A DNA stretch of 64,000 bases from Mycoplasmataceae bacterium (lineage in GTDB: Bacteria; Bacillota_I; Bacilli_A; Mycoplasmatales; Mycoplasmoidaceae). The stretch spans positions 248,001 through 312,000 of the forward strand of contig JAISBY010000010.1 in the NCBI GenBank assembly GCA_031265955.1, read 5' to 3'. The notes under the pieces were generated by a model, which worked only from the letters and a program-made list of their open reading frames with translations, was not told the DNA's origin and did no database searches. The first letter of the stretch is position 1; every line of letters begins with the position of its first letter. Shown here in pieces: positions 12,181 to 55,641 of this stretch. A program made the position numbers and the translations under genes.

Positions 12181-12402
<222 letters not shown>

Positions 12403-19632: not shown

Positions 19633-20907
19633 ATGAAATTTTCAAAATTAATTATTAATAATATCATAGGTATTTTTGATGCAATTAGTATTTCTGCATC
19701 AGTATTTGGCTTGACGCAATGTTCTAAGCCTAACCCCCCCCCTCCAGTTGCTTTAAATCTTTTATCACCAGAAAGCCCTGATTGAGCAACATACTTCGGT
19801 AACCAAACAAGTGACACAATGAATGGTTTTGAAGGCGGTGTAGGCGGCACTGGAGACATAGCTTTCGCCAATTCATCATACGATGGAATTGATTTCTCTG
19901 ATTTTGGTTCCATTGGTGAACGTGCCTTTGTTGATTGTCAAAGCTTATCAAGTGGAACTAAGAGTTTTACTATTTCTTTTGAAAATTTTGTTTCTACTAG
20001 TGATACTTCCATATCTTATGCTGCTTTCTGAGGTTGCGCAAGAATCACAAATATCATTCTCCCTAAGGCCACAACTGAAACAAACACTTTTTCCATCGGC
20101 GATAGTGCCTTCGCTAGATGTATGGGTTTAACAGAAGTTTCGTTACCAGATAATGGTTCGGCCTCCAAGATTTCCATCGGTGATAATGCTTTTGATGACT
20201 GTTTTAATCTTGAATATTTTTCTCTACCAAACGCCAACATTTCTATTGGCACTGATGTTTTTGACGATTGCGTGAATCTAAAAGCACTTAAATCAACAAC
20301 AGATTTAACTAAAATTATTTCTATTGGTAATGCTGCTTTTGAAAAATGTTCTAGCTTAACAATTGATGGAATTCGAAAACTTGAAAACAAAATTGATACC
20401 AATAACCTCAAATATGTAGGCGATGAAAACGGCGCGGCGATTGTAGCTGCTTTAGACAAAACGTGGCTCAATAGAGCCGGTATAGTTTCTGGCGATCTCA
20501 CAAACCTATTTGTAGAAAAAGGTTATTTTAACGGTTCAATGGTCACAGGCGCTTTTGCTAATTGCGATAGCTTAACTGGTATTGATTTGCAAGATGCTAA
20601 TTTGCCAACTCTCGGTACTGGTGCCTTTGATGATGCTACAGTACTCAATAGTGTCAAACTACCAAACAACACAACTTCTATTCCAATGGCTACTTTCGCG
20701 CATTGCAGCGGTTTAACTAATTTGTATTGATACGGTTCTTCTGCCCCTAGTGTGGAAACGCAAGCTTTTCTTGAATGCGCGCACAATGGTAAACTTCACA
20801 TAACTCTTTCCTATGCCTTGTCTCAAGACATAAGCGAAGGTCAAACTGTATCTAACTGAGCCGAACTTGATAGTTACGGCTGAACATACACTATAGATAA
20901 CATATAG
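19633..20907 (+). CDS. BspA-like leucine-rich-repeat lipoprotein with poly-C tract
   Basis: 424-aa predicted lipoprotein: an N-terminal signal ending SVFGLTQC (Cys ~30), then NPPPP encoded by a nine-C run, then BspA-type repeats from about residue 90 onward (SIGERAFVDCQSL, SIGDSAFARCMGL, SIGDNAFDDCFNL, SIGTDVFDDCVNL, SIGNAAFEKCSSL). The current run length keeps the LRR frame open; one base more or less would truncate the protein just after the lipobox, so this looks like a translational on/off switch. TGA-encoded Trp are frequent. Strong AAGGAG ribosome site. Paralogous to the proteins at 12.3, 31.1, 44.9, 49.3 and 55.7 kb. Confidence 0.85.
19734..19742 (+). repeat. poly-C tract (C9) in lipoprotein coding sequence
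   Basis: Nine consecutive C immediately after the lipobox codons, in a genome that is otherwise AT-rich. Coding as Pro-Pro-Pro-Pro in the present phase. Its position early in the mature protein is typical of contingency (phase-variable) loci. Confidence 0.95.
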
Positions 20908-30980: not shown

Positions 30981-31046
<66 letters not shown>

Positions 31047-31070
31047 TTTTTCTCAACCCAATAATTTAAC

Positions 31071-31102
31071 ACCAGTATCAAACACTGATGCTGGTATTTT
31101 TT
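31071..31102 (+). terminator. terminator-like hairpin in leader 2
   Basis: Ten-base stem ACCAGTATCA (31071-31080) with TGATGCTGGT (31086-31095), one G-U pair, loop AACAC, then six T (31097-31102). Located before the ribosome site of the BspA-like gene; attenuator geometry. Confidence 0.75.
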
Positions 31103-48643: not shown

Positions 48644-48666
48644 TCTTTGTAAAGATGGTTTTTTAG
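48644..48666 (-). terminator. terminator downstream of degenerate tRNA-Arg copy
   Basis: Hairpin AACCATCTTTGTAAAGATGG(TT) followed by T on both sides, just downstream of the left tRNA-Arg copy. The right copy carries its counterpart (ACCATCTCGTCAAGAGATGG), so the terminator is part of the duplicated segment. Confidence 0.7.
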
Positions 48667-48667
48667 G

Positions 48668-48742
48668 CGCGCTCCAAGGGAGCCAAACCCTCTAGTCTTC
48701 TAATTCGAAGTCAGACGCTCTATTCAACTGAGCTAAGAGCGC
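48668..48742 (-). tRNA. tRNA-Arg (TCG) copy, probably degenerate
   Basis: Folds as a cloverleaf with acceptor GCGCTCT/GGAGCGC, anticodon TCG and AC stem TCTGA/TTAGA containing one G-T pair. The differences from the copy at 51.1 kb are a T-loop TTTGGCT where the other has TTTGACT (position 58 should be A), no encoded CCA (CCT instead), a U7-G66 pair at the acceptor base, and A at position 37. These suggest a decaying duplicate that may or may not be functional. Confidence 0.6.
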
Positions 48743-51095: not shown

Positions 51096-51172
51096 TGGCG
51101 CGCTCTAAGGGAGTCAAACCCCTAACCTTCTGATCCGAAGTCAGACGCTCTATTCAATTGAGCTAAGAGCGC
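51096..51172 (-). tRNA. tRNA-Arg (TCG)
   Basis: Complete cloverleaf, CCA encoded. Acceptor GCGCTCT/AGAGCGC, D stem GCTC/GAGC, anticodon stem TCTGA/TCAGA with anticodon TCG (reads CGN), T stem AGGGG/CCCTT and T loop TTTGACT with the conserved A58. Lies 7 nt downstream of the S1-domain gene on the same strand. Confidence 0.93.
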
Positions 51173-52112: not shown

Positions 52113-52130
52113 TTTTTTTTTTTTTTTTTT
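52113..52130 (+). repeat. poly-T (T18) tract
   Basis: Eighteen T immediately upstream of a TATCAT box (52132-52137) in front of the leader at 52145. Length change would alter the spacing of promoter elements. Confidence 0.93.
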
Positions 52131-52144
52131 ATATCATTAGTATT

Positions 52145-52171
52145 ATGAAATTGATCGGGGGGGGGGACTAA
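52145..52171 (+). CDS. poly-G leader peptide (early-stop phase)
   Basis: Eight-residue ORF MKLIGGGD, stop TAA at 52169-52171. The ATG is seven bases after TATCAT, like the CA-leader loci. With one G less the frame stays open through the left arm of the hairpin to TAA 52230-52232; with one G more it ends at TAG 52183-52185. The peptide itself is probably not the point of translation. Confidence 0.45.
   Translation: MKLIGGGD
52157..52166 (+). repeat. poly-G (G10) tract in leader ORF
   Basis: Ten G in an AT-rich region, coding Gly-Gly-Gly plus the first base of Asp in the current phase. Slippage-prone. Confidence 0.95.
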
Positions 52172-52247
52172 ACGTAACGTCGTAGGCGTTTATTTTGTTC
52201 TCTTTCTAGAAACAAGACCATTACGTTTGTAAAGTCTTGTTTTTTTG
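52170..52247 (+). terminator. attenuator-like hairpin with competing upstream pairing
   Basis: Terminator: AAACAAGAC (52210-52218) pairs with GTCTTGTTT (52234-52242), 15-base loop, eight T (52240-52247). The loop's TTACGTTT (52221-52228) is exactly complementary to AAACGTAA (52170-52177) just after the leader stop, giving a possible alternative structure. Confidence 0.65.
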
Positions 52248-52281
52248 CAATTTTAAGATTAATTCATAAGGGAGAATAACA

Positions 52282-53043
52282 ATGAAAAAAATTAAATGAA
52301 TTAAAACGATAGGTGTGGTTAGTACTATAGGAATTACTAGTGTTGTACTTTCAGCATCTTTAGCAAGTTGTAGCGAGACTCAACCGAATTTAATCGTAAA
52401 TTCATGAGAAGAATTTAATCAATATTTTGAAACTCACCATGACGAATATAAAACTCCAGACACTCCATTGAATCTCAATAGTGCCACGTCAGATGAGATA
52501 ATTGATTATTTTTTTAGTCACAAGCGAATTAGTGGCCAAAATCTTTTATATTCAATATTTTTAGAGTTAGGAACTACTTATTATGATAATTACGATACAC
52601 CATTAAAGTTAAAAATAAGTACCACCGATAATAGTGTTTCCGCTAAATTCGCTAGTGACTTTGAATTTGACTTTGGATTGTCACCATTAGGTTCCAGCAA
52701 GCAACAAATAAAAAGAGGAATTGATATGATTTTAAAGGACTCATATATCAAAATTCAAGTTTCTCAATCAGAGATTTGTGTTGAGGCAAGCGTAACGCAA
52801 CGGGTATGATTGGATAATTCAAATCAAGACTATGCTCAACGAAAGTTAAATGAAAAATTCAAATACAATTTTAATAATTCTTCTTTTGATGTTTATGGAA
52901 ACCAAGAAACCGATAGCCATGATGAACCGTTATTTTATTTGAGTTTTTCTGATCGTGGAGAGTCAAGATCAACCAGTTTACATTTGAAATCTGCTTGATA
53001 TCCAGATGTCAATTTTGCTGATATAACAGCAAACAAAAATTAG
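52282..53043 (+). CDS. lipoprotein, paralogue pair member 1
   Basis: 253-aa predicted lipoprotein with signal peptide and lipobox VLSASLASC (Cys ~35). The extracellular part has a segment shared with the gene at 53.06 kb (EFNQYFETHHDEYKTPDTPLNLN and DEIIDYFFSHKRISGQNLLYS, residues ~48-95). The rest is beta-rich and unassigned. Strong ribosome site AAGGGAGAA. TGA Trp. Likely under the poly-G leader attenuator upstream. Role unknown; surface exposure is inferred. Confidence 0.78.
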
Positions 53044-53060: not shown

Positions 53061-53915
53061 ATGAAAAGCGATATTTTAAATTCAAAAAAATACAAACAAT
53101 GATTAAGAGAAAAAAGAACTAAAAGGCTATTATTTGGAGCGTGCGTTGGGTTGGTAGGAATCGGAGTAGGAATAGGTGTTGGGTATCCCATCTTTAGTTC
53201 TAATCAAAACGGTTCAAACTTGACTATAAATTCGTGAGTAGATTTTGATCAATATTTTGAAACTCACCACGATGAATATAAAACTCCAGACACTCCATTG
53301 GACCTCAACGATGCCTCACAGGATGAGATTATTGATTATTTTTTTAGCCACAAGCGAATTAGTGGCCAAAATCTTTTATATTCAATGTGTTTGGATTGGG
53401 CAAACATGACATACAGTGATTTTGATTCACCATTGAAGTTGAAGACAAATGTTACCGACAACAGTGCTTCTGTTAAATTGGTTAGTGATTTTGAAACCAG
53501 TAGAGTTTCATCACGAAATGGTTCTGAAACGTCATTTGGTATTACAGAGTACGCTCTTTTTAAGAAAGGTTCATCAATGAAGGTAGAACTTTCAAGATAC
53601 AGTATCAATTATGAATTAAATTTGACATATGTCACTTGAGCAAAAACGACTAATATTTATGAATCGAGTGAAATCTTTTATGGTAATCAAAATGAAAATT
53701 ATAGTGAGACAAAATATTACAACAACGATTCAATAAGGCTTAATGATGATGTGTCAATCACCGCTTCTCCTTCAAATCTTGGGCTGAATATAAAAATTGA
53801 TTGAGGCAATGGGTTAAAAAATATTCCAAATCCATACAACATCGATATCTTGAATCTTTATTTTAATCCTGAATGGTATCCAAATGTTATTCCGGGTGCA
53901 GACCCTAAAATATAA
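53061..53915 (+). CDS. membrane-anchored surface protein, paralogue pair member 2
   Basis: 284 aa. Basic start, then anchor FGACVGLVGIGVGIGVGYPIFSS (~25-47) of the same glycine-rich type as in the BspA-like proteins, though no LRR is present. The region DFDQYFETHHDEYKTPDTPLDLN ... DEIIDYFFSHKRISGQNLLYSM is almost identical to the neighbour upstream. GAAGGA ribosome site. Starts 18 nt after that gene, so co-transcribed. Confidence 0.78.
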
Positions 53916-55508: not shown

Positions 55509-55586
<78 letters not shown>

Positions 55587-55608
55587 TTTTTCACAACACA
55601 CTAATTTA

Positions 55609-55641
55609 ATACAAGCAGTAAACACTACTGCTTGTATTTTT
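55609..55641 (+). terminator. terminator-like hairpin in leader 3
   Basis: Perfect 12-bp stem ATACAAGCAGTA (55609-55620) with TACTGCTTGTAT (55626-55637), loop AACAC as in leader 2, then five T (55637-55641). The stem core differs from leaders 1 and 2 but pairing is kept. Confidence 0.8.

Follow-up and report, generated by a model that had tools for sequence, protein, structure and literature searches.

The closest described counterpart of the leader analysed here is found in Streptococcus gallolyticus, in which pilus operons are placed under the control of GCAGA repeats located in a leader-peptide gene (Danne et al. 2014, PMC3894217). As described there, the wild-type leader peptide ends 39–49 bp before the terminator and expression is low, longer peptides that end at or within the terminator are accompanied by high expression, and chloramphenicol as well as mutations of the ATG and of the terminator behave as expected. 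The principle of attenuation governed by a repeat-bearing leader peptide is already demonstrated in this organism. In the literature searched, such attenuators have so far been confined to this one streptococcal species and its two pilus loci, and the titles and abstracts of the open-access literature searched contained no description of one in a mollicute.

Ribosome and RNA polymerase are coupled in Mycoplasma pneumoniae, and mycoplasma phase variation by a promoter tract is known from the poly-A tract of vlp genes. The GAA repeats of vlhA (PMC6258824) are another Mycoplasma repeat switch that acts at the promoter.

Organization of the leader and its operon

The window, i.e. the whole stretch of 64 kb that was analysed, belongs to a genome of 0.98 Mb (11 contigs) in which TGA encodes tryptophan, as the lipoprotein genes are open under genetic code 4 only. 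The leader and its operon are located on the plus strand. A T18 homopolymer in the promoter (52113–52130) precedes the −10 hexamer TATCAT (52132–52137; TATAAT in most family members), as established by a base-by-base check and, for the hexamer, by sister loci. The original prediction had placed the T tract directly upstream of the hexamer; the order of the two elements holds, but not their adjacency, as a single A intervenes. The ATG at 52145, seven bases past the hexamer, opens a leader ORF (52145–52171) that in its current G10 frame encodes MKLIGGGD and ends with TAA at 52169–52171. The G10 tract (52157–52166), a putative slippage site, supplies glycine codons and also the 5′ arm of an RNA helix. 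On the plus strand of the window, T18 is the sole run of at least 11 T and G10 the sole run of at least seven G, while G10 runs occur at five places in the genome.

The stop codon that a leader ribosome would reach depends on the length of this tract. A G11 or G8 frame ends at TAG (52183–52185) within a hairpin, P1 (52158–52207), the predicted fold of which comprises an outer stem between the poly-G and a pyrimidine tract (52197–52207) and an inner stem (52176–52181/52185–52190). The long G9 or G12 frame ends at TAA (52230–52232) in the loop of an intrinsic terminator with its T run (52208–52244). The presence of this terminator had been correctly predicted, while its extent had not: the predicted stem (52208–52218/52234–52244) is slightly wider than suggested by the earlier boundaries of 52210–52247. 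The leader ORF was reproduced base by base as originally read, and so were the stops of the G11 and G9 frames under code 4. From this geometry the window leader is predicted to be OFF at G10, which gives the shortest frame, and ON at G9.

The gene past the terminator, unlike the leader ORF, has a ribosome-binding site (GGGAG, 52270–52274, by direct reading of the sequence). It encodes a lipoprotein of 253 aa under code 4 with the lipobox SLASC (52282–53043), and is followed by a gene for a paralogous surface protein of 284 aa with an N-terminal membrane segment (53061–53915), which is 44% identical to the former over the matched part. A Pfam search with both proteins returned no match. The original view of a leader peptide controlled by repeat length, placed ahead of a terminator and upstream of surface proteins, is supported.

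The predicted RNA fold of the window leader is more stable than all 200 of 200 shuffles (z −3.55) and consists of P1 with the terminator directly adjoining. When the window was compared with Rfam covariance models, two tRNAs were the only matches at gathering score, and the leader matches no curated family. Within 2.5 kb of each other lie two genes for tRNA-Arg (48666–48742 and 51096–51172) that share the anticodon TCG.

Homopolymers were also noted at other positions relative to genes. In the window, a C9 run (19734–19742) lies just past the lipobox cysteine of a lipoprotein ORF (19633–20907) and is a candidate for coding-frame slippage, and a second C9 (24220–24228; G9 on the minus strand) is located shortly upstream of a minus-strand ATG, possibly as a 5′-leader or promoter tract. 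At locus L001 (G000:C2, minus strand), a G10 tract (821–830) lies in the signal peptide of a lipoprotein ORF. On visual inspection, the frame is broken ahead of the lipobox at the present length and would be regained on loss of one G, a picture that resembles classical coding-frame phase variation within the same genome.

Recurrence of the leader within one genus

A DNA search of the genus returned 10 matches in the genome of the window and eight each in genomes G006 and G013. Their common layout comprises a −10 hexamer, 5–7 nt, an ATG, approximately 10–15 nt, the repeat, P1, the pyrimidine tract, the terminator, a ribosome-binding site and a gene encoding a membrane protein. At E≤0.1, a covariance model built on 19 poly-G copies found matches in 11 of the 36 genomes of the genus, with echoes counted among its 150 rows; across the family, at E≤0.001, it matched 7 of 95 genomes, all of which belong to one genus out of 11. 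The model, although built on poly-G copies, also recovers leaders with (GA)n repeats, and the total by this model is approximately 100 copies. To call the window leader an independent analogue, as the original prediction did, is too weak, as it is a member of these poly-G and (GA)n copies united under one covariance model.

Of 320 genomes of the order, four contain a pattern for leaderless poly-G leaders, and these four belong to the same genus; a reversed control pattern gave two matches. In a public collection, 33 of 40 stretches with the shape of the leader came from the Mycoplasmataceae metagenome-assembled genomes Pcl387_bin181 and Cc175_bin84, and the remaining seven were scattered over unrelated taxa, at chance expectation. 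Isolate names such as Pcl387 and Cc175 presumably denote a termite-gut origin.

The 150 rows were reduced to 106 places, with 44 rows omitted as nine weak matches (E about 0.01–0.07) and as opposite-strand or overlapping echoes; one place (G013:C63, 27 bits) had no fetched locus, hence 105 were analysed. An ATG before an intact tract makes 84 of them scorable, comprising 56 poly-G leaders (7–11 G) and 28 (GA)n leaders (6–20 units), while 21 are unscorable (15 with no intact tract, five with no preceding ATG and one at a contig end with no hairpin). The copies are related, and family counts are thus not independent. In the genome of the window, the scorable poly-G leaders number 10 and the (GA)n leaders at least three, and a CA-leader pattern is matched at 13 places. 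The downstream frames begin with a hydrophobic stretch in 91 of the 105 members, and 52 of these 91 include a lipobox-like motif, although crude rules were used for lipobox and hydrophobicity, and chance cysteines probably account for some of the lipobox calls. Gene starts are mostly located 20–50 nt past the terminator, which leaves little space for a second promoter.

The window also contains three leaders of the same layout with (CA)n repeats, all on the plus strand. The current frame of the first, with (CA)15 (12181–12300), runs far past the terminator to a stop at 12400 and is predicted to be ON, while those of a second (CA)15 leader (30981–31100) and of a (CA)21 leader (55509–55640) are short, with stops at 31044 and 55584, respectively. 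The logic that the window leader had been proposed to share with these CA leaders is borne out by the layout. The CA-leader pattern occurs in 7 of the 36 genomes of the genus (reversed control, 0); it has 13 distinct places in the genome of the window, and the search for a terminator covered the three that lie in the window. The CA leader fold is not unusually structured (z −0.57), and the structured hairpin of the poly-G and (GA)n family was not found in it. Genome G021, which has no covariance-model matches, contains seven near-identical (CA)n leader-like sites, two of which lie on its contig C10, 116 bases apart and on opposite strands. The two classes, CA and poly-G, may have spread independently of each other.

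Probable leaderless start and promoter tract

In bacteria, transcription normally starts about 5–7 nt after the −10 hexamer. Among the members with a tract and an ATG whose match starts at the −10 hexamer, the distance from hexamer to ATG is 5–7 nt in 58 of 62. Since the ATG occupies the usual position of the start site, the 5′ end of the transcript would coincide with it or nearly so.

The proposal of a second tract at the promoter is supported by the family: a homopolymer (C or G ≥8, T ≥10) lies no more than 70 nt upstream of the match in 17 of the 105 leaders, compared with 0 of 105 in a downstream control stretch of the same size. Examples are the T18 tract of the window, which lies in or near the −35/−10 spacer, and C8–C12 tracts in genomes G006 and G000. 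Two putatively slippery tracts per gene are a recurring design. A −35 box clear enough to predict the direction in which tract length would affect initiation was not found at the promoter tract.

Reading frames and tract lengths

In all 84 scorable leaders, the ORF is open through the tract in all three frames, with at least one frame that extends to the terminator and at least one that stops well short of it. Exactly one long frame is present in 53 of the 56 poly-G leaders, while a mean of 24.0 and a maximum of 35 were obtained when the sequence from tract to terminator was dinucleotide-shuffled (300 rounds). Among 18 dissimilar cluster representatives of the poly-G leaders, 16 have exactly one long frame (shuffles, mean 7.9, maximum 13), while the count with at least one long frame, 18 of 18, does not exceed shuffles (mean 15.3, maximum 18). 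In (GA)n leaders, exactly one long frame was found in 9 of 28 compared with 9.1 in shuffles, so that the frame argument for this class is drawn solely from the layout. The stop of the long frame is often located in the terminator loop. The repeat number shifts the leader stop from a position 5′ of the terminator to one within or past it, a pattern that exceeds shuffles for poly-G but not for (GA)n.

In the assemblies, 17 of the 56 poly-G and 9 of the 28 (GA)n leaders are currently in a long frame, and in the genome of the window 2 of 10 and 0 of 3 scorable leaders, respectively. These states appear mixed, as would be the case under random switching. When leaders of one genome whose flanks are 90% alike or more were paired, the tract length differed in 53 of 58 pairs. 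Most of these pairs come from one cluster in genome G007 and are not independent, and they compare paralogues rather than sister cells, with tract lengths taken from metagenome assemblies. Two (GA)n leaders with identical flanks have 10 and seven units. Such a spread of tract lengths among near-identical paralogues is what fast slippage would leave.

An association of ATG loss with tract loss, noticed by eye at loci L051, L059, L060 and L063, was dismissed as not significant (Fisher p = 0.088).

Conserved structure of the leader RNA

In the RNAalifold consensus, P1 is enclosed by a helix whose arms are the G tract itself and the pyrimidine tract further downstream. In an alignment of 19 sequences, 14 pairs are changed on both sides, compared with 6.8 in shuffles (none of 500 as high) and 2–4 with slid partners. 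Covarying pairs are located at the junction beside the G tract, within the inner stem of P1 and within the terminator; in the pairs formed by the G tract itself, just one of the two sides varies. The same fold is predicted for (GA)n leaders (z −4.90 and −4.47) and for the sister leader L043 (z −4.50), and the pyrimidine tract is the pairing partner of either repeat type. In the consensus fold, P1 and the terminator lie side by side with no overlap, and P1 is read here as a pause hairpin that would let the ribosome catch up.

Proposed mechanism and alternative explanations

The features described above make it likely that the leader is a phase-variable transcription attenuator that is controlled by translation and depends on the ribosome. 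RNA polymerase would start at the ATG or immediately beside it, 5–7 nt past the −10 box, and thus produce a leader ORF with no 5′ untranslated region, the translation of which would be leaderless. Slipped-strand mispairing in living populations would alter the length of the poly-G tract and set the downstream reading frame. With G10 or G11, the ribosome would stop before or in P1, the terminator would fold and the lipoprotein operon would be silent. With G9 or G12, the ribosome would continue to the TAA located in the terminator loop and, by its footprint, block pairing of the terminator 5′ arm, and transcription would enter the operon. P1, with its outer stem of poly-G and pyrimidine tract, probably pauses the polymerase such that the ribosome can catch up, and initiation is probably tuned independently by the promoter T tract as a second element.

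It may alternatively be supposed that translation of the leader is unneeded and that tract length acts structurally, as a rheostat, by altering the helix between repeat and pyrimidine tract beside the terminator. The pairing of both poly-G and (GA)n with the pyrimidine tract and the covarying junction pairs are in keeping with this explanation. However, it leaves aside the conservation of the ATG, with its fixed spacing to the −10 box, and the frame pattern of one long and two short frames, CA leaders have the same layout with no such structure, and no base of the terminator stem takes part in the helix, all of which make a purely structural switch unlikely. A different role of RNA pairing was favoured by the original prediction, in which the terminator loop competes with AAACGTAA, the segment after the G tract (52170–52177), and a stopped ribosome decides the outcome by covering that segment. 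The complementarity itself was reproduced: TTACGTTT (52221–52228) is the exact reverse complement of AAACGTAA over eight bases, among 56 loops, that of the window copy fits the segment of this copy best, and the closest sister leader, L043, keeps a nine-base pairing with one compensatory change. Nevertheless, over the 56 poly-G copies a leader's own pairs scored a mean of 10.14, compared with 10.41 for mismatched pairs and 10.47 for shuffled loops, 42 of 1000 loop shuffles equal the window copy, so that complementarity over eight bases is weak evidence by itself, and the predicted fold places the AAACGTAA segment in P1. Frame and stop geometry also accounts for the switch with no loop pairing. 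A switch by loop competition is very improbable; it was rejected as a family mechanism because it is not conserved over the 56 copies, and would at most be a local addition. The pairing of 52170–52178 with 52221–52229 is a feature of the window copy and L043 only, with one compensatory change between them.

Expression might also be set solely by the poly-T (or poly-C) tract, as ordinary promoter phase variation, with the leader being incidental. Promoter-tract switching of the vlhA and vlp type is established in mycoplasmas, and the promoter homopolymers of the 17 leaders would be compatible with it, but the other 88 of the 105 have no promoter tract, yet 84 of the 105 keep leader tract, ATG and terminator. 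This explanation is considered the least probable of all, and ribosome-dependent attenuation remains the preferred one.

Implications

Compared with the system of Danne et al. (2014), the putative novelty lies in the scale, the leaderless start, the use of several repeat types and the frequent second homopolymers at the promoter, together with a conserved hairpin in which the repeat itself would be an arm of the helix. A broader interpretation, which we regard as possible but somewhat doubtful, is that the family represents genus-restricted, structured and phase-variable attenuators in which the repeat both counts the leaderless frame and forms the helix arm that times the polymerase. They would control dozens of lipoprotein genes in each genome, often in combination with a slippery promoter tract, and could generate a combinatorial surface by two switches per gene. 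Phase variation by a repeat-bearing leader peptide would in the present genomes be the general wiring of the surface proteome in several mollicutes, and attenuation could then be a principal way in which reduced genomes, poor in regulators, generate phenotypic diversity. The approximately 100 attenuators may also be used as a natural library for determining the distance that a ribosome has to cover in order to disrupt a terminator. They raise the question of why a gut symbiont needs antigen-like variation.

Comparison with known systems

The present leaders share with pil1 and pil3 a short tandem repeat in a leader-peptide ORF and an intrinsic terminator between the leader and an operon for surface structures. 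In both, one frame stops tens of bases 5′ of the terminator (OFF) and others stop at or in it (ON), which is predicted for the present leaders. The pil1 and pil3 leaders differ in their GCAGA repeats, their ribosome-binding site, their restriction to two pilus loci and their experimental proof. The present leaders, known from sequence, contain poly-G, (GA)n or (CA)n, begin with a putatively leaderless ATG and read TGA as tryptophan; they also have a conserved P1 that contains the repeat, occur in approximately 100 copies in seven genomes and frequently have a second tract in the promoter.

A likeness also exists to the pyrBI attenuator of E. coli, in which a leader ribosome near the polymerase prevents terminator formation. 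The same holds for E. coli trp (PMC3894217). A further likeness to both is that an upstream hairpin may time the polymerase. However, trp and pyrBI sense a metabolite, while in the present leaders a hypermutable tract would set the outcome, and the mutually exclusive antiterminator pairing of the trp type was not found, with no conserved pairing of segment and loop over the 56 copies.

With the Mycoplasma promoter switches, the leaders have in common the apparent control of mollicute surface lipoprotein families by repeat length and the presence of a homopolymer near the −35/−10 spacer. Those switches act on initiation, whereas the main repeat of the present leaders is located in the transcribed leader, before a terminator. 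The leaders display the sequence features of a pil1-type attenuator, to which they may be assigned on these grounds.
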